Of a stretch of 64,000 nucleotides of DNA, positions 23,540 through 37,895 are shown piece by piece (the stretch's first letter is position 1; the number at the start of each line of letters is the position of its first letter). The notes under the pieces are model-generated. The model was not told the DNA's origin. It was given only the letters and a program-made list of their open reading frames with translations, and did no database searches. Where the stretch lies: assembly GCF_900143015.1 (NCBI RefSeq), contig NZ_FSRT01000001.1, positions 1,426,001 through 1,490,000 of the forward strand, written 5' to 3'. The position numbers were made by a program, and so were the translations under genes. Origin of the DNA: Fibrobacter sp. UWB11. Lineage in GTDB: Bacteria > Fibrobacterota > Fibrobacteria > Fibrobacterales > Fibrobacteraceae.

Positions 23540-23845
23540 TTAACCCTTATTAGCTTCCGGGATACCGATTTCGATTTTTCCGTACTTGGCTTCGTATGCC
23601 TTGAGGGTTGCACCAAGCATAATAGCGAGGCGTTTTGCAGTAAACGGAGTCATCACCACGCGTTCGGCGAGATCGACATCGACCTTTTCCTGATTCATTT
23701 TCCATGCGCGGTTTACGCCCAAAAGAACCATAACTTCTTCGCGACCGGCAACAACATTGGTCGCATTCACATAGAGGCTCTTCATGTTAGCGTCGTTCCA
23801 TACGACTTCTGGTTCATTTGAAGCAACTTTTTTTTCTTCGGACAT
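23540..23845 (-). CDS. DUF3467 family protein, 101 aa
   Basis: The start MSEEKK at 23845 is set by GGAG 6 nt upstream; the ATG 12 nt earlier overlaps that ribosome binding site. The sequence YVNATNVVAGREEVMVLLGV followed by a hydrophilic stretch and a C-terminal helix (AKRLAIMLGATLKAYEAKYG) fits DUF3467, a small cytosolic family of unknown function. There is no signal peptide. It is divergent from the beta-helix operon and upstream of the FISUMP gene on the same strand. Confidence 0.85.
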   Translation of the reverse strand: MSEEKKVASNEPEVVWNDANMKSLYVNATNVVAGREEVMVLLGVNRAWKMNQEKVDVDLAERVVMTPFTAKRLAIMLGATLKAYEAKYGKIEIGIPEANKG

Positions 23846-24278
23846 TTTAATCTCCAAATTTTAATACATTACAACTCGTTTATGTAAGTCGTTTACAGTC
23901 AACAAAATACGTTATTTTAAAGCTACAAAATTCCTTCATTTTTGTGGAATTTCAGCCAAAATAAGCAATATTGCCAACTTTTTCACGCTTCACACAAACG
24001 ATAGAATATAGTATAAATTATCAAAAATCAAGTATAGACAAGACAAATAACTTATTACAATTAACATACATAAGCAATTTTCAAACCGACACTCATTACT
24101 TTTTTCTTACCAAACAACATTTTCCTTGACAACAGAATAACGCTATTCTATTTTCGCCTCGTTTTAGGATAAAATCACAACTTGGAGATTCATACAAACT
24201 TTATACGTAAAAAGTTTACCAAATTATTTCCCAAACAAATCAATCAACATAAAATACCAAACATATCCACACATAATC
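23846..24278. other. AT-rich intergenic region between divergent genes
   Basis: This 433-bp region holds the promoter of the beta-helix operon (24126-24175), described separately. The remainder is AT-rich with no plausible reading frame and no recognised RNA. Confidence 0.7.
24096..24186 (+). promoter_or_regulatory. Promoter/leader shared with the HlyD-TolC operon, copy 1
   Basis: TTGACA (24126-24131), a 17-bp spacer and TATTTT (24149-24154) make a good sigma-70-type promoter. ATTTT (24150-24154) and AAAAT (24171-24175) form an inverted repeat over the likely transcription start. The preceding TTACTTTTTTCTTACC and the following leader through GGAG are nearly identical to those at 32390-32480. 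Confidence 0.8.
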
Positions 24279-26972
24279 ATGGTTTCTAAGTTTTACTCCA
24301 TATTGTTATTAGCTTTCGCAATAATGATAAGCGAAGCTTTTGCGGCAAATACAGCCAATACAAATTGGTCATTTACACCATACAACGAATCGTTAAATAC
24401 ACTCAATAAAAATAATTCCGAAAGCAAAGACCTTTTAAATAACCGAAAAACATCAGATTTTCTCGTTATCGCAGATACGATCGACATCTCCGACAATTCA
24501 ATGATTCTAGGAGATATTTTCGGCACAAAATTCCAATTGGGCGCCGATTCTAAGATTTACGGCAATGTGGACGCATCAAAAGGATGCTCATTACGAGCAA
24601 AATCTCACATCGCTGGGAATTTACGCTACAGCGAACCTTGTAATTCAGAAATCGGCGCGACAGCGGCATCGACAAAACAAGTTTCCCCGGAAAAACCGAC
24701 CCTAGCCACCCCCACTTTCGCATTCAGCGATTCCGCAAAGGCCGTAAACATCAGCAAATCCGAGACGCTCCTACCGGGCGAATACGGCGCACTTAATGCA
24801 AAAAAACGAGCCAAGATAAAACTCTCGTCCGGTTCATACAAATTCCAAAGCATTCATACAGATCCAAATGTCGAATTATCTTTTGATCTAACATCTGGCC
24901 CCATTACAATCGATGTCGCAAACGATGTTGATTTCGGCAATAAAAGCCAATTCGCTATAAACGGCGGAAATCCGAGCGAAATCACATGGAATATCGCTGG
25001 TAAATCCATTAAAATAGGCAACGATGGGCTTTATTTCGGAACAATCATTGCCCCGAACGCATCCGTCAGCATCGAATCACGAACACACTTGGTCGGTAGC
25101 GTTTACGTAAACAAGCTCACCATAGCCCCAAAATCAACCATTTCACGCGAACCCCGCGCAGAAGAAATTTCGCACAGCGAAGGACATTTCGGACCGTTCT
25201 TCGAATCCAATACATTCCATTACCGTTCCGTACTACCGACAACAGCAAAATCTGTTGAAATGTACGTTTACGCCAAAGATTCCAAAGTAAAAGTAAACGG
25301 AAAACAATCTACAAAGGTTGCTCTCGATGCATCATCGACAATAGTAAAAATCGAAATTTCCCGCGACAAAATCACAGGATTCCCCGCCGAAGCATTCAGC
25401 AGTAATTACGTCTTCAGCTTCGAGAAAAACGATAACTACCGCATTTATTGGAACCCGCAATCGCCCTGTTCGCAAGGATGCGAAGGAACAACCCCGGCAA
25501 CAGCCATCGGTGATTTCAACGCAGTCCTAGAAACAGCACAAAAGACCGGCCGAGAAATCAACATCACCAGCGGAACATGGAACGTCGCCGACAACTTCAG
25601 CGATGGAGTTGTCCCTTGGAAAGTCGGCTTTGAGCTAGTCGGCTACACCGGCGACATTTGGCATCTCAAGTCAGAAAACGACATGCCGCTCATCGACCTT
25701 GGGAAATCCTCCCACATCGAAATCCAAGGACGTTCTCCCCGTAGTTTAAAAGGCCTACGAATCGCCAACGGATTCAATGCAAAAGATGGCGGCGCCATCC
25801 ACGCCAGCAATCAAAAACTCACCATCAAAAACGCAGTCATTACCGATTCAAAATCCAACGCCGAAGGCGGTGCAATATTTGCCACGGATTCATTAAACCT
25901 TGAAAACATCCGATTCTCCGGAAACTCGGCCCTTGGCGATGGCGGTGCCGTAGCCGCCAACGGCGAAACAAAGATGCTCAACATCGTCTATACAGGCAAC
26001 AAATCCGCAAAGAATGGAGGCGCTGTAAAACTCACTGGTAACGGGACCTACATCGGCAACGCCGTTTTCCACGACAACCGGACCGTTATAAAAGGCGGAG
26101 CCATAAACAACGAAAGCAACAAGCTCGACATTTGGAACTCCACATTCTTCGCCAACATCGCCAAAGCAGCAAACCCAGCCATTAGCGGTAAAGCAAACGG
26201 ATCCATCGGCAACAGCATTTTCTGGAAAAACTTCACCCCAAGCTGCGAACCCGGCAAATGCGCCAATGAAGTTATTGAGGGATTTTCAGCAACACATTCA
26301 TCATTCTCAAGACCGTACGGCGGCAACCACAATTATACAGGCGATCCGAAGTTTATGGACGAGAAGAATCCTGCAGGGAATTCCGCATTTATGGACTTTG
26401 ATGCAGGAGTCAATCTATCCGACGAATCGCCTTTACGAAAAGCCGGAAAAATAGACGAACTCATACCTAAAACAGATATTACAGGAAGCGAACGCAGTAA
26501 AAAAGAAACATCATTAGGTGCATACGCCTACAGCACAATTGCCAGCGAATTCTTTTACGGCAACCTTCAAGAAGACGGAACTATAGGCATAGCCACCCCA
26601 ACTTTTCCACTATTCGACACAATACCAAGCCCTTGGTTTAGATCATATTTAGCAGACAGCAAACTAGCAAGAGCTATAAAGGTCAAAATTTCAAAGCACC
26701 CCAAAACCGAAACAAATTCACTAAAAATTCGATTTTCCTTGACAAAAAAAGATAAAACACCCTACAACATTAAACCAGTCGATATACTCTTTTTCAAAAG
26801 CGGAGAAGAGGATGGGAAATACGTATTCCAAACAATGACAGAAACACAGGGAAAACCCGTTTTATTTACACGAAATAAAAAGAATATCGGAAACTTTGAA
26901 GAAGCCATTGTTTTATTCATCAATGACGGTTCAGACAGGTTTCATTATCAAATACTTGATTTTAACAAATAA
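24279..26972 (+). CDS. Secreted beta-helix protein with Pmp-like GGA(I/V)/FxxN repeats, 897 aa
   Basis: The N-terminus MVSKFYSILLLAFAIMISEA is a signal peptide ending near AFA-AN. Residues about 60-120 and 180-300 have bactofilin-like, strand-repeat sequence (LGDIFGTKFQLGADSKIYG). Residues about 505-660 carry the repeat signature GGAI...FSGNSALGDGGAV...YTGNKSAKNGGAV, as in chlamydial polymorphic outer-membrane proteins and related parallel beta-helices. There is no autotransporter barrel; the C-terminal 130 residues are unassigned. No clear Shine-Dalgarno sequence precedes ATG 24279: the leader GGAG at 24183 is about 95 nt away. It is the first gene of a three-gene operon with the protease and the SUMF-like protein. 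It is likely surface-exposed. Confidence 0.8.
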   Translation: MVSKFYSILLLAFAIMISEAFAANTANTNWSFTPYNESLNTLNKNNSESKDLLNNRKTSDFLVIADTIDISDNSMILGDIFGTKFQLGADSKIYGNVDASKGCSLRAKSHIAGNLRYSEPCNSEIGATAASTKQVSPEKPTLATPTFAFSDSAKAVNISKSETLLPGEYGALNAKKRAKIKLSSGSYKFQSIHTDPNVELSFDLTSGPITIDVANDVDFGNKSQFAINGGNPSEITWNIAGKSIKIGNDGLYFGTIIAPNASVSIESRTHLVGSVYVNKLTIAPKSTISREPRAEEISHSEGHFGPFFESNTFHYRSVLPTTAKSVEMYVYAKDSKVKVNGKQSTKVALDASSTIVKIEISRDKITGFPAEAFSSNYVFSFEKNDNYRIYWNPQSPCSQGCEGTTPATAIGDFNAVLETAQKTGREINITSGTWNVADNFSDGVVPWKVGFELVGYTGDIWHLKSENDMPLIDLGKSSHIEIQGRSPRSLKGLRIANGFNAKDGGAIHASNQKLTIKNAVITDSKSNAEGGAIFATDSLNLENIRFSGNSALGDGGAVAANGETKMLNIVYTGNKSAKNGGAVKLTGNGTYIGNAVFHDNRTVIKGGAINNESNKLDIWNSTFFANIAKAANPAISGKANGSIGNSIFWKNFTPSCEPGKCANEVIEGFSATHSSFSRPYGGNHNYTGDPKFMDEKNPAGNSAFMDFDAGVNLSDESPLRKAGKIDELIPKTDITGSERSKKETSLGAYAYSTIASEFFYGNLQEDGTIGIATPTFPLFDTIPSPWFRSYLADSKLARAIKVKISKHPKTETNSLKIRFSLTKKDKTPYNIKPVDILFFKSGEEDGKYVFQTMTETQGKPVLFTRNKKNIGNFEEAIVLFINDGSDRFHYQILDFNK

Positions 26973-26984
26973 CATAGGATTAAA

Positions 26985-29519
26985 ATGAAAAAGCTATTCA
27001 TAACTTTATCGTTTTTCTTCGTAGCAGCTTATGCCAACAACAGCATGAGTGGTTATACGGAATCAATTGTAGAAAATGCAAATTTATCTTCTAATGAATC
27101 AACAATATTAGAAGAAAATCATTCTTTAAGCACACAAACATCTACACAAAAACCACAACGATTGGCTATTCAACCGGCAGGTTACCTCGACGGCACTTAT
27201 GAAACTCCACATAATCCATATTCTGGAAAAATAAAGGAGTATTCGTGGCAAAATGAATTACCTAAATTTACAGAAACAGATGGTCACCCGTATGGTTTTG
27301 ATCAAACCCCAGAACACTGCCTTAAAACAAACAGAACTGTAGAGTATTGCGTTAAAAATATGCAAAAGATTTGCGAATCAGATGATCCTGATGACCAAAT
27401 GGAATGTTATTATTTAAAAAAAGAATGTCTCTGTTATGAAAGGCTTCCAACAATATGCAATACAGAAAGTCCAGCTGATGAATGCAAAGATTTATTTAAA
27501 GATGCCAAAATTCCCACGATATATATTTCAGCAGAAAAAGGAAAAGAAGTTTCCTTTGATTATGATTTGTCAACAAACATAAATGACAAATACTGTTTAG
27601 TTCGATATGATTATGTAAAAGATGGTGAAGGTAATTACATAAAAGAAAAAAATAAAAACTCCAGTGATGGATTCGGAGGAGAATTAAAAACAGAGCTTGT
27701 ATACGCAAAACCATTTAAAGCAAACCGAGGCGTTCATACAATTGAAGGGATATATACTCAAACAGAAGGATTATTTAAATTAATGAAAGCTGTGAATAAA
27801 AAATGCAAACCCACTAAAAATACAGTTTATAGCACAGCAATCAAAGTTATTCCTTATGAGATGGATACAAAAAAATTTGTTTACATTCAAATGGATGGAG
27901 GAGTAAAAGACATCGAAAAAAATTCTGATTATCCCAATGCATTCACAAAAGCAAAAGTAGATAAATTCGTTAATGAAGTATTTAAGCAAGCCGTACTTAA
28001 CACAAATAGTACAGATGGAACAAAAAAACTAAATGACGCAAAGGAAACTTTTCAAAATGAATTAATTCAAGTCGAAATGACAAATCCATCAGCGACTGAA
28101 GATGATTTTTATAAAAAATTAGATAAAATATACAAATTTTTCAATATATCATCATCACTTGACAAAAAAAACGAAGCATGGCATATTATCGTTGCAATAA
28201 ATAAAGTTCGAAAAAAATGGCATCTCGACAAATGTAGATCCAAAGTAGGGGCTCCAATTGAGTTAAGAGCTTGCGCAAGTAAATACAAATTCCAACCAGA
28301 ACAAGAAGGATCAAACACTCAATACTACATAAAAAGCGCCAAAGGGTGTAGAAAAGGAATCAATCCCGAAGACGAACGACCTGTTATTATTAGCGCAACC
28401 CCCAAAATATCAGATGGGTCGATAGATTATGACTATTACGGCCAAATAAAGAAAGATTACCATGTTATTGAAAATGGAGAAAAACAAGAGCTTAAAGATT
28501 GCGACACTTTGTTTACAGACAATGGCTATGCAGTAATACCAACAGCGGATGGTATTGATGCAGCCGGTATTAGCATTGATTTGGGACGTAATACAAAATT
28601 CGGAAATATCGCAAGCTACGAACATGACATATTTGATGATTATTTGGCATATGGAAGTATCATGATTGTACCTAGAAATATTGGAGACGAGTCATTCTAT
28701 ACAAGCGTTCACGAATTATTACATTCATTCGGTTTAACGGACATAGCCTCCGTATCTGATTTTGAAGTTCCCATAAAAGATCCAACCAGCCGAATAGAAA
28801 TTGAATACGATCCAAGTTCTTATAAAACAAATTGGGGCAGATATAAAAACGAATACGGAACTCAAGAATCAAACGTTATGGAATATAAAGGTCCTGGAGG
28901 TAATCGAATAAGGCATAGAGAAAACATAATCACATGTACTGGAGGACAAACGTACTACGCTTCATTAATAAAAGAAACCGCAATGGGTCCATTAGTATGG
29001 GATCCTATAGAAATAGGATTAGGACCTCTTGTTATTGATGGAATTGGAGAAAACCAATGGGACTGTCTTAGAGATTGTCTTAACAAACCTGATTTTTCTA
29101 CAAAAAGTCGAAAAATTTATTGGAACAATTCAGACAAATGCGCTTTGGAAGACAAAGAAATAACATTACCTCAACAAAAATATATTGATGCATACCAAGA
29201 CAATCCAAAATATCTTGCAAAAATATTTCCTATTAGAAGGTTTATGGCAAGTCTTACAGAAACAGAAAAAAAATCACCTGAAAATTATAGATATTACTCA
29301 CTTGAAGAGGTGTCTAAAAATACAACTTTTTCAATAGAACAATTAAGACCGTATTTTGAGTTTGTCGATTTTGCACAATGTTATGATTACGTTAAATCGG
29401 AATACTGCTTTAAATTAGATGATTTACGTAATTGTACTTACTTAGATGGAAAAAATCGAAAGCCTTGTTTTGAATCTAGTAAAATAGAAGACTATTTAAA
29501 AAACAATCCACGAAATTAA
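26985..29519 (+). CDS. Secreted metzincin-type metalloprotease, 844 aa
   Basis: AGGA lies 5 nt before ATG 26985, and the start follows the previous stop by 12 bp. MKKLFITLSFFFVAAYA is a signal peptide. The zinc site HELLHSFGLTD begins at His576 and fits HExxHxxGxxH/D. NVMEY about 60 residues later can serve as the Met-turn. Many Cys residues before and after the catalytic domain suggest disulfides and an extracytoplasmic location. The subfamily is not recognised. The gene is notably AT-rich, with many Lys/Asn/Ile codons, compared with the housekeeping half. It may process its operon partners or host/plant proteins; this is inference. Confidence 0.8.
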   Translation: MKKLFITLSFFFVAAYANNSMSGYTESIVENANLSSNESTILEENHSLSTQTSTQKPQRLAIQPAGYLDGTYETPHNPYSGKIKEYSWQNELPKFTETDGHPYGFDQTPEHCLKTNRTVEYCVKNMQKICESDDPDDQMECYYLKKECLCYERLPTICNTESPADECKDLFKDAKIPTIYISAEKGKEVSFDYDLSTNINDKYCLVRYDYVKDGEGNYIKEKNKNSSDGFGGELKTELVYAKPFKANRGVHTIEGIYTQTEGLFKLMKAVNKKCKPTKNTVYSTAIKVIPYEMDTKKFVYIQMDGGVKDIEKNSDYPNAFTKAKVDKFVNEVFKQAVLNTNSTDGTKKLNDAKETFQNELIQVEMTNPSATEDDFYKKLDKIYKFFNISSSLDKKNEAWHIIVAINKVRKKWHLDKCRSKVGAPIELRACASKYKFQPEQEGSNTQYYIKSAKGCRKGINPEDERPVIISATPKISDGSIDYDYYGQIKKDYHVIENGEKQELKDCDTLFTDNGYAVIPTADGIDAAGISIDLGRNTKFGNIASYEHDIFDDYLAYGSIMIVPRNIGDESFYTSVHELLHSFGLTDIASVSDFEVPIKDPTSRIEIEYDPSSYKTNWGRYKNEYGTQESNVMEYKGPGGNRIRHRENIITCTGGQTYYASLIKETAMGPLVWDPIEIGLGPLVIDGIGENQWDCLRDCLNKPDFSTKSRKIYWNNSDKCALEDKEITLPQQKYIDAYQDNPKYLAKIFPIRRFMASLTETEKKSPENYRYYSLEEVSKNTTFSIEQLRPYFEFVDFAQCYDYVKSEYCFKLDDLRNCTYLDGKNRKPCFESSKIEDYLKNNPRN

Positions 29520-29528
29520 GGAGGTATC

Positions 29529-30914
29529 ATGAAAAAAATTTTTTTATTAGTCTCTTTACTTTTTGCCATAGCAAATGCATATCAATATAACATTTACGAC
29601 ATTAATGGAAAAAAAATAGGTACGTACAAAGAAAAAATAAATAAAGCACAGTTAAAAAATTTCGTTAAACAGTACCACAGCTCTATATTAGTAAAAAAAG
29701 GAACTAGCCAGGAATTCAAAACATTAGAAAATAAAAATTTGGCACAAGTAAAACAGGTAGATAAAAATTTTGAACTAAACAGTTTTTTTTCTGATAATGA
29801 AGATTGGATTGAAGTAGAAAAAAATGAAATCATAAAAATATGCCTAGATAACCTAATATCTGTTTGGGAAACTCCATTAAATTCATCCATCATAAATGAT
29901 TCTTGCATAACAATTCAAATGCCAATGTTTGTTGGAGTCGAATCACTCAATGTATATTCACCTAATGTGGATAGTTCTCGAAAGATCAATTTTGCAATAA
30001 GTTTAAAATACCTTGATTTAAAAAATGAGGAAGTCCTTCTAGGCTATAATACAGGAAATAAAGGAATCAGAGTAACAACAAAGAAAAGATCATATATAGC
30101 CAAGGAACCTGATCCAGAAAGAACTCTATCCATTACAGCCAAATATTTAGTTGATAAATATCCCATAACGAATTGCGAAATTTTGCAATTGATGTGGGAC
30201 AGCATTCCCAACAATCCAACAATAAAAGATTCTTCCTATTATAACAATGAAGTCATAAAAAAATGGTCCAATAGAAAAAAAACAAACTTGCACAACGGAT
30301 TTTGTCCAGTTCATGATACAGCAGCAAATACATTTTCTCTATATCAAGCAATGAGATATGCCAATGCACGCAGTATCCGTGAAGGGCTAAAACCTTATTA
30401 CACTTTTTCAGACACACAAACTGATTCTGTACAAATAATCTCAAAAGGTCAATACATTATAAGCTATTATGACCATTCAAAACATAATAATGGATTCATT
30501 CAAGTTTCAGTTGATTCTTCATCTGATGGTTATCGACTTCCATATTACGATGAATGGATGATGTTTGCTCGTGGTGGAGACTTGACTAAACACGCCCCAT
30601 GGGGTAATTTTTCAGATTCTTTTGAAGAAGTTTCTAAACATGCCAAATTTGATAACAAAAAAAATTATGGAGAATCTGAGCTAGTAGGTCAGTTGCAACC
30701 AAATCGATATGGTTTATATGATTTTTTAGGACTAGTAGAAGAACACGTTCTTTTTGAGCAGACCAATCCATTTAATTATTACAACGGAAGTCCATCTTGT
30801 TTTAAGGGAGGATCAATTCATAGCAACTGGAAAAAAGTCAACTATGGTTATACATCTGCTAACTATTACAGCGCTAATCTAGGTGGATTTCGTTTAATCC
30901 GAAAACTAAAGTAA
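29529..30914 (+). CDS. Secreted FGE/SUMF-like domain protein, 461 aa
   Basis: It has a perfect AAGGAGGT ribosome binding site and starts 9 bp after the protease stop. The signal peptide is MKKIFLLVSLLFAIANA. Residues about 200-461 follow the formylglycine-generating-enzyme fold: VDKYPITNCE, DGYRLPYYDEWMMFARGG, APWG, NRYGLYDFLGLVEEH and a terminal GGFRLIR. The usual GNVWEW becomes GLVEEH, and no catalytic cysteine pair was recognised. It is therefore probably a binding or structural member of the family. Its N-terminal 190 residues are unassigned. A strong terminator follows, and a tandem paralog lies beyond it. Confidence 0.82.
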   Translation: MKKIFLLVSLLFAIANAYQYNIYDINGKKIGTYKEKINKAQLKNFVKQYHSSILVKKGTSQEFKTLENKNLAQVKQVDKNFELNSFFSDNEDWIEVEKNEIIKICLDNLISVWETPLNSSIINDSCITIQMPMFVGVESLNVYSPNVDSSRKINFAISLKYLDLKNEEVLLGYNTGNKGIRVTTKKRSYIAKEPDPERTLSITAKYLVDKYPITNCEILQLMWDSIPNNPTIKDSSYYNNEVIKKWSNRKKTNLHNGFCPVHDTAANTFSLYQAMRYANARSIREGLKPYYTFSDTQTDSVQIISKGQYIISYYDHSKHNNGFIQVSVDSSSDGYRLPYYDEWMMFARGGDLTKHAPWGNFSDSFEEVSKHAKFDNKKNYGESELVGQLQPNRYGLYDFLGLVEEHVLFEQTNPFNYYNGSPSCFKGGSIHSNWKKVNYGYTSANYYSANLGGFRLIRKLK

Positions 30915-30932
30915 AAATGTCTCAACACGTTC

Positions 30933-30966
30933 AAAAGACCAATATAAATATTGGTCTTTTTCTATA
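30933..30966 (+). terminator. Rho-independent terminator of the beta-helix/protease/SUMF operon
   Basis: A perfect 12-bp stem (30933-30944 with 30949-30960) with a TAAA loop runs into TTTTTC. It ends only about 10 bp before the start codon of the next gene. Confidence 0.92.
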
Positions 30967-30975
30967 TTCTGATAT

Positions 30976-32223
30976 ATGAAATTTTTTTCTTTTTTTACAG
31001 CAATCGGCATTATAATTTTTTTTGTAGCCATTTACTTGATACACACTCAAAATTTAAGAAAAATTACGATAAAGCAAACCTCTTTAAACACGGAAACTTG
31101 GCTAGAAGTTGAAAAGAACGAGGCAATCAAAATTTGCATAGATTCCAAAGTCCTAGAATGGAAAACTTCGCTGAACACTAAAAAAACAAACGATTATTGT
31201 CTGAAATTTCAGACCCCGATGATTATCGGGACAAGTGTAATTAATGTTAAATTTCCGGATTCAGATAGTTTACACAAAATCAATTTAGCTGTCGGAATGA
31301 AGTATCTTGATTTCAAAAAAGAGGAAGTACTGCTTGGGTTTCGCATTCCTCAAGGAGACTACGTTGATGAAGAAAAACTCGTATCGGTGACGGCAACATA
31401 TTTAGTTGATAAATATCCTGTTACTAATTGCGAAATGGCATATTTTTTTCGGGAAGAACTTTCTTCGAGCTCGGTAATGAATGATGAAAAAAGAAAACAA
31501 AAAAACGAACATACCGAAAGCGATTGGAAATGTAATGCTCATGATTATGCAACAAGAGCTTATTTATACCAAGCTTTGAAATATGCAAATGCACGCAGCA
31601 TTCGTGATGGTTTAAAGCCATATTATGTGTTTTCTCAAACAGACAAAAGAAAGGCTCAAATATTATCAGAAGGTCATTATATTATAGAGTATGAAAATTT
31701 GGATTATCCTAAAGAAACTCGAGCTGAGGTTTCGATTGATTCCTCTTCGGATGGCTACCGACTTCCCTATTATGATGAATGGATGATGTTTGCTAGGGCC
31801 GGCGATAAAACGAAAGATGCTCCTTGGGGGGATTCGGCAACGCTTGAAGATGTTTTGAAGTACGCAAAATTTGAAGTAAAGGAAGTTTATGAAAAAAACG
31901 AACGTTTAAAAACAGGGAATGTGGGCTTACGGCTTGCAAATGAATATGGCTTGTATGATATGTTTGGCTTGGTTGAAGAACATGTCCTTTTGGAACGCCC
32001 AGAAAAGTTCAAACGTAAATGGAGGATGGTACGTGACCGCCCCTTAACTGTCGGTTGCAAAGCAACATGTCCATCTTATTTGAAAGGAGGAGACATTCGT
32101 GATAGGTGGCAAGATGTTAATTATGGGTCTTATTCACGAGAAGGTATTGGCGGTTTCCGTCTCATCCGCAACATCGGCAATAACGCCAAGTGGACCGAAG
32201 TCAAATCCAATTCAAACGAATAA
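30976..32223 (+). CDS. FGE/SUMF-like domain protein, tandem paralog, 415 aa
   Basis: From ETWLEVEKNEAIKIC onward it aligns by eye along its whole length with the preceding protein: VDKYPVTNCE, YANARSIRDGLKPYY, DGYRLPYYDEWMMFARAGD, NEYGLYDMFGLVEEH, GGFRLIRN. The N-terminus differs: a single hydrophobic anchor (residues 5-22) replaces the signal peptide, and about 60 residues after it are missing. No Shine-Dalgarno sequence is visible. The ATG lies 15 bp after a terminator stem, so it may be leaderless or expressed by read-through. It is a recent-looking duplication that has diverged in base composition (less AT-rich than its sister). Confidence 0.8.
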   Translation: MKFFSFFTAIGIIIFFVAIYLIHTQNLRKITIKQTSLNTETWLEVEKNEAIKICIDSKVLEWKTSLNTKKTNDYCLKFQTPMIIGTSVINVKFPDSDSLHKINLAVGMKYLDFKKEEVLLGFRIPQGDYVDEEKLVSVTATYLVDKYPVTNCEMAYFFREELSSSSVMNDEKRKQKNEHTESDWKCNAHDYATRAYLYQALKYANARSIRDGLKPYYVFSQTDKRKAQILSEGHYIIEYENLDYPKETRAEVSIDSSSDGYRLPYYDEWMMFARAGDKTKDAPWGDSATLEDVLKYAKFEVKEVYEKNERLKTGNVGLRLANEYGLYDMFGLVEEHVLLERPEKFKRKWRMVRDRPLTVGCKATCPSYLKGGDIRDRWQDVNYGSYSREGIGGFRLIRNIGNNAKWTEVKSNSNE

Positions 32224-32253
32224 CCCTTTTATACTACTATCACCGCACAAAAA

Positions 32254-32279
32254 GAGGCCCCACAGGCCTCATTTTTTTT
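32254..32279 (+). terminator. Rho-independent terminator after the SUMF paralog
   Basis: A GAGGCC/GGCCTC stem (32254-32259 with 32265-32270) is followed by a run of eight T. Confidence 0.85.
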
Positions 32280-32280
32280 G

Positions 32281-32332
32281 CATCATCCGAGATCTTTCGA
32301 TTTCGCCCTTGCGGGCTACACTCAAGATGACA
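32281..32332. repeat. REP-like extragenic element
   Basis: It starts CATCATCCGAGATCTTTCGA and ends ACTCAAGATGAC, with an internal GCCC/GGGC hairpin. It has the same architecture as the other TC(A)T..GA..ATGAC elements in this window. Confidence 0.65.
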
Positions 32333-32383
32333 CTATGGCATACAATCAGCAAAAATGACAAATAACAGATTTCACCAAACCCC

Positions 32384-32480
32384 GCATTACTTTACTTTTT
32401 TCTTACCGCACAAAATAACCTTGACAAGTGATTAATCCAATTCTATTTTGGCTCCGTTTTGGGATAAAATAGCCGTGGAG
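32384..32480 (+). promoter_or_regulatory. Promoter/leader shared with the beta-helix operon, copy 2
   Basis: TTGACA (32421-32426), a 17-bp spacer and TATTTT (32444-32449). CTATTTT (32443-32449) and AAAATAG (32466-32472) form a perfect 7-bp inverted repeat spanning the expected transcription start. Upstream TTACTTTTTTCTTACC is identical to copy 1 at about 24096. Confidence 0.82.
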
Positions 32481-32487
32481 GTACATG

Positions 32488-33948
32488 ATGAGCATATCTC
32501 GTTCATTCATCAACAACCATTTATTCTTATTCTTCTCGTCCTGTGTTATTTTAGGATGTTCTGTAACCGATTCCACAGATAACGCTTATTCTAAATGGGA
32601 TTTTTCAGGCTCTGTCGTTGATGCTACAGACAACAAGGGTCTCAACAAGGCTACTATAACATACCAAGACGCATCCGGCAATATCACCGAAACGGAGACC
32701 GATAAGAACGGCTATTTTTATATTGAAGAGCTCCCCTACGGCACTCGTTCATTCACATTCAGCTACAAAAAAATATCCGGAAAAGACACGCTTTACTATT
32801 CTCCCAAATCGGTAAGCATAACCTCTACAAGCGAATCCTCGCACATGGAAGGGGTCGTCGCCGGAAATTCATCGATCGTACGCCTGACACCTATAAATGC
32901 TTCGTTCAAAGGCGAATTATACATCTACGACGAAGATGCGGACAAAAAAATACCGGTTTCTGGCGCCAAATTGAACATAATTCACCAGAATGCCGACTTT
33001 ATCAACATTTTCCCCGAAAGTTTTTCTTCAAAAACCGATTCTACCGGAAAATTTACGTTTAAAAAGATTCCTGCCGATACCGGTTTCATTCTACAAGTAA
33101 GCCCTTATACCTATAATAACTTGCGCTACACCATAGGCGATATCGTACTCCCTAAGCTCAGGGCCAACTCCGAAATCGACCTGGGCCGTAATGTTCTCGA
33201 ACGCGACACATCTATCGAACAGAAAAGTATTATCAAATCTTCAAACGTCATAGACGTAAATATGAACGGTTACAGCGGCGTATCCACGCTTGCAACGCCT
33301 TACTATGTTTTCAGCGAAAGCATTACCGATAAAAATTTATCCGTATCCGTAAAGGCGGACACAGCAACATTCTATGTAAAGCCTACTCTTTCTGGCGACA
33401 CGTTGTTTTTAAAGCACGATCTCGCCTTCCCTGCCGAGACAAAGATTCTCGTCAACATAACAGCTTACAAGAAAAAGTCCGGAAACCGCATAGCTCTTGA
33501 GCTTGCTGGCGATTCCGCATTCACAACCGATCGCGGTTTGTACGCGGTTACAAGCAACGCATGGCCGAGCAACAAAAATTTCAAGTCTACGTTCGGAACA
33601 AAAGATACCATCTGGGTAAAGTTCAGCGAAAAACTCGACGAAAACACCGAACGTATCCAGTGGAGTTATGTCAACGGCATGGCCCGTTCCATTTACGCAA
33701 ACGGCTACTATGCCAATGCAAAATCTTGGATTAAGCAAGATACGTTGTTCGTCCAGATGTTAGAAAAGATTCTCGATTCCCGAGTCCAGGGCGACTCTGT
33801 AGGCATGAACGTGACCGTTTACGCCAAGAACGAGATGTATCTCAAGGGATTCACTTTGCGCACAGAGCTCAAAGTTCCGCCCAGTTCATCTTCTAGCGCT
33901 GTTTCTTCTAGCTCTGCCGCAAATTCTAGCTCTAGCACGTCTAACTAA
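32488..33948 (+). CDS. Lipoprotein with CnaB/carboxypeptidase-regulatory-like repeats, 486 aa
   Basis: Two tandem ATGs (32485, 32488) follow GGAGGT; the second gives the better spacing. The signal peptide ends in lipobox VILGC. Residues about 38-110 (GSVVDATDNKGLNKATITY...DKNGYFYIEELPYG) and 145-215 are two beta-sandwich repeats of the carboxypeptidase-regulatory/CnaB kind. An Ig-like region follows, and the C-terminus is a Ser-rich tail (about 20 residues). Its stop overlaps the next start by 1 nt (TAATG), so it is translationally coupled to the HlyD adaptor. I infer an envelope-anchored accessory part of the export operon. Confidence 0.8.
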   Translation: MSISRSFINNHLFLFFSSCVILGCSVTDSTDNAYSKWDFSGSVVDATDNKGLNKATITYQDASGNITETETDKNGYFYIEELPYGTRSFTFSYKKISGKDTLYYSPKSVSITSTSESSHMEGVVAGNSSIVRLTPINASFKGELYIYDEDADKKIPVSGAKLNIIHQNADFINIFPESFSSKTDSTGKFTFKKIPADTGFILQVSPYTYNNLRYTIGDIVLPKLRANSEIDLGRNVLERDTSIEQKSIIKSSNVIDVNMNGYSGVSTLATPYYVFSESITDKNLSVSVKADTATFYVKPTLSGDTLFLKHDLAFPAETKILVNITAYKKKSGNRIALELAGDSAFTTDRGLYAVTSNAWPSNKNFKSTFGTKDTIWVKFSEKLDENTERIQWSYVNGMARSIYANGYYANAKSWIKQDTLFVQMLEKILDSRVQGDSVGMNVTVYAKNEMYLKGFTLRTELKVPPSSSSSAVSSSSAANSSSSTSN

Positions 33949-34736
33949 TGATTCGCAAAGTCTTCACAAGTTTTTTGTTTGCGGCTACGGCATACGCCGC
34001 TACTTTTGACGGTGTCACAGAACCCATCGCCCAGGCAAAAATCGGATTCACCGTATCCGGTAAAGTCGACAGTATTTGGGTAAAAGAAGGCGCAATCGTC
34101 CACAAGGGCGACACGCTGATGAACCTCGTAAAAACCGAAGAGGAATTACGCGTAAGCATCACGAAAATTGCGGCAGAAGACAATTCCAACGTAGCGTCCG
34201 CCAAAGCAAAGATGGACACCTACGAAAAGGATATGCAGGTCACCAAAAAGCTTTTTGAAACATCTACTTCTATCAGTGCCGAACAGGTCTGGGAAAAAGA
34301 GATGAACTACAAGGTCACAAAAGCCGAATGGGAAGCCGCAAGGATTGCCAAAGCGAAGGATTCTCTCGAATACAGCATGGCACGCGCTCAGTTGCAAAAG
34401 CAATACCTTATAGCGCCCTTTGATGGCGAAATCGTAGCCATTTCTAAGAATCCAAGCGAAAGTGTCGAAGCGCTGGAGCCTATCATCGAGATAGCCGATG
34501 TGCGCACCTGCCGCATGACGGCCTACATCATTGTAAGCAAGGCCAGTTCGCTCAAGGTCGGGCAAGATGTAAGTCTGCAGCTCAACAGCGGCAAAATTCG
34601 CAACAAGAAAGGCAAAATCGAATTTATCTCCCCCGTTGTTGATAAAGCAAGCCTTTTGCGTACCATAAAAGTCGTTTTCGAAAACTCCGACAAATCTGTC
34701 GAGCCGGGTGTAACCGGAAAGATTTTTGTTAAATGA
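33948..34736 (+). CDS. HlyD-type periplasmic adaptor, 262 aa
   Basis: A signal peptide (MIRKVFTSFLFAATAYA) leads into a barrel-sandwich (biotinyl-lipoyl-like) half at residues 25-60 with VSGKVDSIWVKEGAIVHKGD. A short helical hairpin (about 65-140) and the second half with YLIAPFDGEIVAISKNPSE follow, then a beta-barrel. It is short for the family. It lacks a membrane anchor in the mature form, so it is likely soluble or attached through partners in the periplasm. The start overlaps the lipoprotein stop and the stop overlaps the TolC start (ATGA). No RND or ABC pump gene accompanies it. Confidence 0.9.
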   Translation: MIRKVFTSFLFAATAYAATFDGVTEPIAQAKIGFTVSGKVDSIWVKEGAIVHKGDTLMNLVKTEEELRVSITKIAAEDNSNVASAKAKMDTYEKDMQVTKKLFETSTSISAEQVWEKEMNYKVTKAEWEAARIAKAKDSLEYSMARAQLQKQYLIAPFDGEIVAISKNPSESVEALEPIIEIADVRTCRMTAYIIVSKASSLKVGQDVSLQLNSGKIRNKKGKIEFISPVVDKASLLRTIKVVFENSDKSVEPGVTGKIFVK

Positions 34737-36463
34737 TCGAGGCTCGCACCACATTGTTTTCGCAATCAGTAAGGCCGTTTTTCGCCATACTGTTCTTTGT
34801 GTTTTTTACCGTTTTTGCGCAAGCACAAGATTCAACGGAAATTCTGGATTCGATACAACAAACCCAGATGCCGCAGGTTTTGGACTCTATCGATCAAATT
34901 CCAGATTCGATTGCGCAACCACCGCAAGAGCCAATAGCACAGGCAGAAGAGACCTTGGAATCGCAGCCATTACAGCAACAGGATTCCGAGCAAATTGAAG
35001 AAACTTTACAGCAAGAAAATGCGGCCCTTTTGTCGAACGATTCGCTTTTCATCGACTTTAGCGAAGCCATCGACATCATCATCGCCAACAACATCGACAT
35101 TCAAGAAGCAAAATACAATTGGATTGCCCAAAGCGAAGCTGCCACCGGAAGCTACGGCGAATTCGAGCCGCACTTGACTGCACGCGCTTTCAGCGAAAAA
35201 GGCGACGCCCCCAACACGCTATTTTCTGAAACCCGCAATGAATACAAGGTTGGCGTTCAAGGCAAAGCCCCAACCGGAACCGAATACAACATCGGTTTTA
35301 ACCAGACGAGTTACACGCACAGCGAGTACACTTCGGAACTTTATTTTGGCGGAGAACTCAGGCAGCATGTGCTGAAGGGCGGCCCATTATTTTATGCATC
35401 GTTCAACAATCAACGTGCTGCAAAAATTCAAAAGGAGCTAGCGCTCCAGAAATACCGCGAAACTTTAAGCGGGATTCTTGAAAAGTTCTGCGAAACATAC
35501 TGGGAATTTTATTTTTCGCAACAGACATTGCTCTTTGCAGAAAAATCTTCGGCTGTCGCCAAAGAAATTGTAGAAGATGCCCGCAAACGCTATGAATTGG
35601 GAATGCTTTCTCAGCTTGATTACCAAAAAGCCGTTGCAGAATATTCCGACCGCGAAAGCGCTCGCCTTGATGCTTTGGACAAATTGCGCAATGCAAGGCT
35701 CGCTTTGTTATTGATTTTATCTTCACAAGAATTGGTAAGGGACCCACGCCCCATCGCCATTACGCCAAATCTAGAGCTGGATTCAACAGCCATTCTCGAT
35801 TCTTTGACGTTTATCGATTCCATCAGCATTCTACACCCCTCTTACCTTGCACAACACGCCGAAGTCGATTTACGCACAACAGCGTTGGACAAAAGCAAGA
35901 ATAACTTTTTACCCTCTGTCGACCTCATCGGAAATTACGGCATCCGCAGCCGCGACAAAAATGCAGAAGTCGCCCGCAGCAAGTTCAAAAACAAGAACAA
36001 CAGGCAAAGCGTATTTGCATACGGCATCGAAATTGACGTGCCCTTATTTGCAAATCTTGATGAGCGCCACCAAATCGCATCGAACAAAGCAAGCGTTCGC
36101 GCTGCACGTTCTAGGCTAGCACTCATACAGAACCAACTTTACGAAGAATACCGCATACTACAGCAAAGAGCAACAGAGCTCCGTAACCAATGGCAACTGA
36201 GCAAAACAGCAGTCGCCTACCATGAAAAGGAACTCAAAGAAGAGTTCAAAAAAATGGAACTCGGCAAAAGTAACTATCACCTTATTTTCGACATGGAAGA
36301 CGATCTCCGTCAGGCACAACAGCGCCACCTTGAATGTATGAAACTTTTACGAGTCATAGACATCCGTCTTGTCCGCGCTACAGGCAAACTACTGATGCAA
36401 AACGGTTTTGAATCTTGGAAAGACGGGAAAATTACGCTTCGCAAGGAACTGCTCCATGACTAA
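34733..36463 (+). CDS. TolC-family outer membrane channel, 576 aa
   Basis: ATG overlaps the adaptor stop. A hydrophobic signal (residues 12-32, ending AQAQ) is followed by an unusual acidic/Gln-rich low-complexity stretch (about 33-100, repeated LDSI and QPxQ units). Then comes the OEP fold: FSEAIDIIIANNIDIQEAKY, a barrel segment ELRQHVLKGGP, and long coiled coils (KYRETLSGILEKF, ARKRYELGMLSQLDYQKAVAE) in two similar halves. It would form the outer membrane exit duct for the HlyD-type proteins. The 70-residue N-terminal extension is longer than in typical TolC. Confidence 0.9.
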   Translation: MIEARTTLFSQSVRPFFAILFFVFFTVFAQAQDSTEILDSIQQTQMPQVLDSIDQIPDSIAQPPQEPIAQAEETLESQPLQQQDSEQIEETLQQENAALLSNDSLFIDFSEAIDIIIANNIDIQEAKYNWIAQSEAATGSYGEFEPHLTARAFSEKGDAPNTLFSETRNEYKVGVQGKAPTGTEYNIGFNQTSYTHSEYTSELYFGGELRQHVLKGGPLFYASFNNQRAAKIQKELALQKYRETLSGILEKFCETYWEFYFSQQTLLFAEKSSAVAKEIVEDARKRYELGMLSQLDYQKAVAEYSDRESARLDALDKLRNARLALLLILSSQELVRDPRPIAITPNLELDSTAILDSLTFIDSISILHPSYLAQHAEVDLRTTALDKSKNNFLPSVDLIGNYGIRSRDKNAEVARSKFKNKNNRQSVFAYGIEIDVPLFANLDERHQIASNKASVRAARSRLALIQNQLYEEYRILQQRATELRNQWQLSKTAVAYHEKELKEEFKKMELGKSNYHLIFDMEDDLRQAQQRHLECMKLLRVIDIRLVRATGKLLMQNGFESWKDGKITLRKELLHD

Positions 36464-37895
36464 CGCTAAATTTAAAATGGATCCGAGCGAAATCGTTACC
36501 GCTCTGCAATACGCGCTAAAGTCGTCAAACACAAAAAACGACCAGTTGACGACTGTATTTGACATAGTCCAAAAAGTTTTAGAAAAAGATAAATTCAAGC
36601 AAGCTGCACTCACACTCGTCAGCGAAATTGCCGACCGCAATAGAGCAGAACGAGTAAGCATCGGTTGGCTAAAGCACGATTACATTGTCCTCAAGGCAAT
36701 AAGCCACACAGACCATTTCGAGAAAAAGATGCAAATCGTGCGCGACCTCGAAGGCGCCATGGAAGAAGCCTACGAGCAAGACGCATCGATACTCTACCCG
36801 CCCCCCGAAAACAACCTGCTTGCCACGCGCATGCACGAAGCATACAGCCAGACATACAATGCCCCCTATATGCTTTCTGTACCGGTTCGCCACGGTGACG
36901 ATATTATTGGTATTATTACTTGCGAACGAAAAGGCGTCCCATTTACCGATGATAATGCAACGCAGATTCATTTGGCAGCAAGCCTCTGTAGCGCAAGGCT
37001 TATGGAGCTTTATAGCAAAAGCAGCTGGTTTGGTGCAAGAATGGCACGCAGCATGCGAAAGGGGCTCGGCAAACTTTTAGGGTACGAACATACATGGGCA
37101 AAATTTTTCTCGATTATCGGGATTGCCTTTGTTCTTTTCGCTACACTATACCCGCTCGAATACAAAGTAAGCTCCCCTGCTATTTTAAAAACCGATAAAA
37201 TAATTTACTTGACAGCCCCATTCGATGGTTACATCGACAGCGTCTACGTAAAGCCGGGTGATGTCGTATACAAAGGTCAAGAAATTCTCCGACTTGATCA
37301 AGAAGAGCTCAAGCTCGAAGAAGCCGACTTGCTCGCCCAAGAGCAAGACAATCGTCGAGAAATCCAAAAGGCCCAGGCAAGCCGCGAACTCGCCGAGATG
37401 CGCATCCAACAGGCAAGACTCGCACAGACTCTTGCAAAACTCAAAACTGTTCGTTACAAACTTTCCAAGGCAATTGTCCGCGCCACCGCCGATAGCGCCA
37501 TCATTGTCGAAGGCGACTTGCAAAAGAAAATAGGTGCTCCGGTCAATCAAGGTGCAGAACTGTTCCAGATGGCATCCATCGAAAACATCTACGTAGAATC
37601 GGACGTAAGTGAACTTGAAATCGGAAATATTCCAAGCGATGGCGAAGGCCTGCTAGCCATCAAGAGCCGCCCGGATTTCGTTTACCGATTCAAAACGGAG
37701 CGAATCAGCCCGACCGCAACCGTCAAGGATCAAGAAAACACCTTCCCCGTGCGCGGAGAATTTGTAAACAAGGTTCCAAGTTGGTTCCGCCCTGGCATGA
37801 CAGGCATTTCTAAAATCTACGCCGGCAAAAAAACACTTTGGTGGATTCTATCGCACCAAGCAATCGACTATTTGCGACTCAAGCTTTGGTGGTAA
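36456..37895 (+). CDS. GAF-TM-HlyD fusion adaptor, 479 aa
   Basis: The start MTNAKFKMD at 36456 has AAGGA upstream and overlaps the TolC stop by 8 bp; the longer frame begins deeper in tolC and is rejected. Residues about 30-200 form a GAF-like cytosolic domain (LVSEIADRNRAERVSIGWLK, SVPVRHGDDIIGIITCERKG). One transmembrane helix lies near 228-245 (FFSIIGIAFVLFATLYPL). A HlyD part follows: LTAPFDGYIDSVYVKPGDVV, a coiled-coil hairpin, and a barrel ending VPSWFRPGMTGISKIYAG. Such proteins accompany M50-HlyD peptidases in other Gram-negative bacteria. Here it would couple a cytosolic signal or cargo recognition to the periplasmic channel. It converges on the amidohydrolase gene with only 5 bp between stops. 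Confidence 0.88.
   Translation: MTNAKFKMDPSEIVTALQYALKSSNTKNDQLTTVFDIVQKVLEKDKFKQAALTLVSEIADRNRAERVSIGWLKHDYIVLKAISHTDHFEKKMQIVRDLEGAMEEAYEQDASILYPPPENNLLATRMHEAYSQTYNAPYMLSVPVRHGDDIIGIITCERKGVPFTDDNATQIHLAASLCSARLMELYSKSSWFGARMARSMRKGLGKLLGYEHTWAKFFSIIGIAFVLFATLYPLEYKVSSPAILKTDKIIYLTAPFDGYIDSVYVKPGDVVYKGQEILRLDQEELKLEEADLLAQEQDNRREIQKAQASRELAEMRIQQARLAQTLAKLKTVRYKLSKAIVRATADSAIIVEGDLQKKIGAPVNQGAELFQMASIENIYVESDVSELEIGNIPSDGEGLLAIKSRPDFVYRFKTERISPTATVKDQENTFPVRGEFVNKVPSWFRPGMTGISKIYAGKKTLWWILSHQAIDYLRLKLWW

Follow-up and report, generated by a model that had tools for sequence, protein, structure and literature searches.

Why do two neighbouring operons of the gut bacterium Fibrobacter sp. 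UWB11, one for secreted proteins and one of export type, begin with nearly the same stretch of DNA? The locus lies in a 64,000-nucleotide stretch of contig NZ_FSRT01000001.1 (the window, whose numbering is used throughout), and a first-pass annotation had read the resemblance as a sign that one regulator controls both secreted substrates and the machine that exports them. Analysis of the locus, its genome and 80 genomes of the genus favors another answer with some confidence: the leader of a resident operon was probably duplicated and a gene block inserted, followed by gene turnover behind the first copy, with both promoters probably keeping the same firing conditions.

Two operons behind one type of leader

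The first operon is composed of four plus-strand genes. Gene A (24279..26972) encodes a secreted beta-helix-type protein that matches DUF7305 above the cut-off, with additional weak matches to bactofilin and POMP repeats. Gene B (26985..29519) encodes a secreted, metalloprotease-like protein with the sequence HELLHSFGLTD (HExxHxxGxxD), at which its relatives have HELGHSLGLTD or HEMGHSFGLTD. Genes C (29529..30914) and D (30976..32223) each encode an FGE-sulfatase/SUMF-domain protein, and the counterpart of D is the last SUMF gene of the equivalent block in the near relative G008. The second operon, also on the plus strand, opens with gene E (32485..33948), for a lipoprotein with a carboxypeptidase-regulatory-like domain, and continues with an HlyD/RND-type periplasmic adaptor (gene F, 33948-34736), a TolC-type outer-membrane protein (gene G, 34733-36463) and, as its last gene, a protein with a GAF domain and an HlyD-type adaptor (gene H, 36408..37895). 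A terminator-like hairpin on the plus strand (32254..32270) lies between gene D and the second leader, and A-D and E-H are thus probably separate transcripts. Upstream of the first leader, on the minus strand, is a DUF3467 gene (23540..23857).

The leaders were delimited by direct reading, alignment and pattern search, and the first additionally by BLAST. Leader 1 (L1) occupies 24096..24187 and leader 2 (L2) 32392..32480, both on the plus strand, and the reported likeness of about 90 bp before both operons is borne out: from TTACTTTTTTCTTACC to GGAG, 71 of 92 alignment columns are identical (77%). The elements in common are TTACTTTTTTCTTACC (the T-block, identical at 16 of 16 positions), CCTTGACAA, a 17-bp spacer, ATTCTATTTT, CGTTTTnGGATAAAAT and TGGAG. 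In L1 the T-block is found at 24096-24111, the -35 box TTGACA at 24126-24131, the -10 box TATTTT at 24149-24154, the segment GTTTTAGGA at the predicted +1 at 24161-24169, and GGAG at 24184-24187; the corresponding features of L2 are at 32392-32407, 32421-32426, 32444-32449, 32456-32464 (here GTTTTGGGA) and 32477-32480. The hexamers, their spacing and the GGAG are therefore as first annotated. Each leader has 10 of 12 matches to the sigma-70 consensus with a 17-bp spacer, and by hexamers and spacing both are predicted to act as sigma-70-type promoters.

The leaders differ in what follows the GGAG. In L2 the ATG of gene E is situated 4 nt downstream, whereas in L1 a stretch of 91 nt (24188..24278, plus strand; about 95 nt had been claimed) precedes the ATG of gene A, and this stretch differs from that in G008. 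At the position of the old start codon of the export-operon leader, L1 reads ATA (24192). The start codon after L1 is likewise gone in G008, where the ATG of the first gene is also far downstream. Several genes of the region have no Shine-Dalgarno sequence, so gene A need not rely on the distant GGAG; its frame is open back to 24168, and these 29 open codons are of unremarkable length. A relic of gene E behind L1 was considered and rejected, as similarity stops at the old start-codon position.

The leader is confined to two copies in the genome

Genome-wide statements in this section rest on pattern and BLAST searches. With L1 as query over the whole 3.76-Mb genome, BLAST returned L2 (80% identity over 80 bp, E 6.6e-13) and no match beyond this and L1 itself. 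The T-block has no further copy in the genome at 0 or 1 mismatch. The composite TATTTT-N5-CGTTTTNGGA occurs exactly twice, in L1 and L2, with none added at 1 mismatch; at 2-3 mismatches it is not commoner than its reversed control. By comparison, TTGACA-N17-TATTTT alone has 8 exact occurrences and 99 in all with at most 1 mismatch, against 35 for the reversed control, and is an ordinary promoter type of this genome. L1 and L2 conform to this type and differ from it in having the T-block and the start-site element in common as well.

Across the 80 genus genomes, the promoter joined to CGTTTTNGGA was found in export-operon leaders, in the leader that precedes the block in this genome and in its G008 counterpart, and at three other sites, the last being no more than the reversed-control rate. 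The leader was thus not found before many unrelated genes, a finding that would have counted against a common control, and the scan for more copies proposed in the first-pass annotation yielded none in this genome. A genome-wide regulon was rejected, as no further copies of the T-block, start-site element or composite were found. The two-copy specificity makes shared control plausible, and two sigma-70-type leaders with the T-rich upstream block and GTTTTnGGA in common would probably fire under the same conditions. Judged from sequence, co-regulation of the two operons is plausible.

Gene order in relatives points to insertion between leader copies

The E-F-G genes, with or without H, are present in 20 of the 80 genomes; named relatives are rumen metagenome-assembled genomes of F. 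succinogenes and Fibrobacter sp. Among the regions fetched, 18 have no block, and in these the DUF3467 gene directly adjoins the divergent gene E and so marks the ancestral junction, and the operon consists of lipoprotein, HlyD, TolC and usually GAF-HlyD genes. This genome and G008 are the only ones in which the block is situated between DUF3467 and E, and both have it bounded on either side by a copy of the leader; L1 retains the DUF3467 flank and L2 the E flank. Taken together, the block-free order and the block bounded by leaders argue for leader duplication with gene insertion.

The segment containing the DUF3467 gene and L1 (23401-24211) is 92% identical here and in G008, and similarity then ends just behind the leader. 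The first gene behind L1 in G008 encodes a protease-like (B-type) lipoprotein rather than the beta-helix protein of gene A, and the block order there is B'-C'-A-B''-C'' against A-B-C-D here, so the genes behind L1 did change. The proposal that the original gene behind L1 was replaced agrees with this as far as a changed gene is concerned. Separately, the B and C genes are duplicated and shuffled differently in the two blocks (24279-32223 here, L127 in G008), a sign of fast turnover.

These observations may be ordered as follows. The ancestral locus would have had the divergent DUF3467 gene, a single promoter leader and the lipoprotein/HlyD/TolC/GAF-HlyD operon. Duplication of the leader would have followed in the lineage that gave rise to this genome and G008, with a beta-helix/metalloprotease/SUMF block, present elsewhere in other Fibrobacter genomes, placed between the two copies. 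L1 would have kept the DUF3467 flank and lost the following start codon, while L2 would still drive the export-type operon; later reshuffling behind L1 may then have left a B-type gene first in G008 and A first here.

Identities between leaders fit duplication within this lineage. When the 50 nt beginning at the -35 box are compared, L1 is 80-82% identical to the L2 of this genome, G008 and G075, 74-76% identical to the G069 leader and 68% to that of G018, and L2 of this genome is 76% identical to G069 and 74% to G018; sequences this short leave the order of events unfixed. G075 counts against the duplication reading, as the sequence just upstream of its L2 is unrelated to this genome and the contig ends there. 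The two genomes are alike no further upstream than the leader T-block. Just upstream of L2 in G075 (L128, 1-650), in the place that the block has in this genome, is a broken gene that by eye resembles Rpn/PD-(D/E)XK nuclease-transposase genes.

Units resembling A-B-C are found at other places in 13 other genomes, and where their upstream sequence is readable it is unrelated to the leader. Leader copying is not seen as a habit of the block: among 12 other units inspected, 10 have no direct repeat of ~70-100 bp (the one at L196 measures 26 bp), and at the remaining two (L192, L195) such repeats consist of other kinds of sequence.

The same data bear on a reading in which the leader pair is a mere by-product of insertion and carries no regulatory meaning: duplication or recombination would have left the direct repeats, and L1 would be an inert remnant or a plain constitutive promoter. 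The leaders do flank the block as direct repeats, and the sequence after L1 has lost its start codon and leads into different genes in the two strains. The identical columns of L1 and L2 are not significantly clustered either (permutation, p = 0.13 and 0.14), and selection on L1 after duplication is therefore not proven. Against this, L1 in this genome and in G008 alike retains the start-site element, perfect -35 and -10 boxes and the distance between them, and we regard the by-product reading as somewhat unlikely.

A start-site segment, not the inverted repeat, is conserved

Upstream of diverged E orthologs the promoter boxes are kept, though most other DNA no longer aligns, and so is GTTTTnGG(A), whose G stands 7-9 bases past the -10 box, at the expected start. 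GTTTTnGGA is kept in the close group and in G010 and G043; it takes the form GTTTTGGG in G076 and G077, and GTTTTGGG with one extra T in G039 and G017. Overall, GTTTT is at the predicted +1 in 13 of 15 aligned leaders, and the segment fails in G019 and G028.

The ATTTT...AAAAT inverted repeat that had been proposed as an operator is indeed present in both L1 and L2, one arm being the -10 box. As an operator it was rejected: among the leaders compared, both arms exist only in L1 and L2 of this genome, in the L2 of G008 (which matches L2 here in this part) and in G075, and they are lost in G069, G018, G010, G076, G039, G017 and even in the L1 of G008. A hairpin at the 5' end of the RNA was likewise rejected, with folds no better than shuffles in most leaders (z-scores near 0), no structure in common, and no Rfam match at the gathering threshold. 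Given that the repeat is not conserved and that neither a common fold nor an Rfam match was found, a control element, if there is one, would lie in the start-site segment or be the promoter as such.

A dedicated DNA-binding regulator that recognizes GTTTTnGGA, perhaps with the T-block, would make the copied leader a means of bringing the block into a two-operon regulon. The exact two-copy count of the element in the genome fits such a protein, as does its retention at the predicted +1 even where the remaining upstream DNA of diverged orthologs has ceased to align; the segment is not palindromic, however, the proposed operator repeat is not conserved, and no gene for a regulator was identified next to the operon (DUF3467 is a domain of unknown function). 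On balance this regulator is doubtful. More doubtful still is the idea that GTTTTnGGA is itself the control element, through nucleotide-sensing slippage or a start-site-bound regulator, and that copying of the whole leader put the secreted-protein block under it; if true, it would amount to a kind of insertion by which incoming genes obtain a neighbour's promoter.

UTP-sensitive promoters of E. coli that undergo reiterative transcription (carAB P1, pyrBI, codBA and upp) offer a lead for slippage, and only a lead. Such promoters use a T run (three T in carAB P1) behind the initiating nucleotide, in the initially transcribed region, and 7-8 bp separate the -10 box from the start (PMC6245113), reminiscent of the G and TTTT at the predicted +1 here. 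The present leaders differ in that two orthologs (G019 and G028) have a shortened or interrupted T run and the gene functions are unrelated to pyrimidines.

The block and the export-type operon occur independently

The link between secreted substrates and their exporter, as held in the first-pass annotation, was set against the distribution of block and operon. Among the 80 genomes, some of them incomplete drafts in which absences are approximate, 5 have both, 15 the export operon only, 10 the block only and 50 neither, which is no association (Fisher p = 0.51; p = 1 once the two linked genomes are left out). The block is located away from the operon in 13 further genomes, 10 of which have no export operon. 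By sequence inspection, A, B and C have Sec-type N-termini, unlike type I secretion substrates, which are without a Sec signal peptide. Likewise, in contrast to type I secretion systems and tripartite exporters, no inner-membrane pump is encoded here with the adaptor and TolC: no ABC, RND or MFS protein was found among E-H (lipoprotein, adaptor, TolC and GAF-adaptor). Independent occurrence, Sec-type N-termini and the missing pump together fail to support secreted proteins paired with their exporter. The adjacency of the operons and a leader that is specific and common to both are what the coupling model has in its favor, and against the counts, N-termini and pump search we consider it very improbable. 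Shared timing of the export operon and the block is possible.

Relation to known systems

The kind of event is already known as promoter capture or switched regulatory regions, and the locus is no new kind of system. In switched intergenic regions, a form of horizontal regulatory transfer, recombination puts an intergenic promoter region before a different gene (PMC5890482), and here too a promoter region would have come to control a different gene. The difference is that in the published cases strains differ in which intergenic region occupies a given locus, one having displaced the other, whereas here both copies are kept in a single genome and flank the inserted genes. The locus is a clean natural example of an acquired block behind a copy of a resident operon's promoter leader, with block-free and block-bearing orders both in hand, and if the copy works, accessory secreted proteins would have been wired into existing control by one rearrangement. 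It also draws attention to a short start-site element kept in diverged members of Fibrobacter, a group whose gene control is little known. A literature search found no paper joining Fibrobacter with HlyD and TolC, and the few on Fibrobacter promoters included none relevant as judged by title.

Three further features were observed. The DUF3467 gene also adjoins E-F-G in a second, more diverged operon copy that has neither gene H nor the leader motif (L142-L146). Gene H encodes a GAF-HlyD fusion and is kept in many Fibrobacter genomes; its operon has another adaptor and TolC besides, and no pump was found in it. Finally, positions 787-22098 of the window hold one uninterrupted open frame of 7103 codons on the minus strand.
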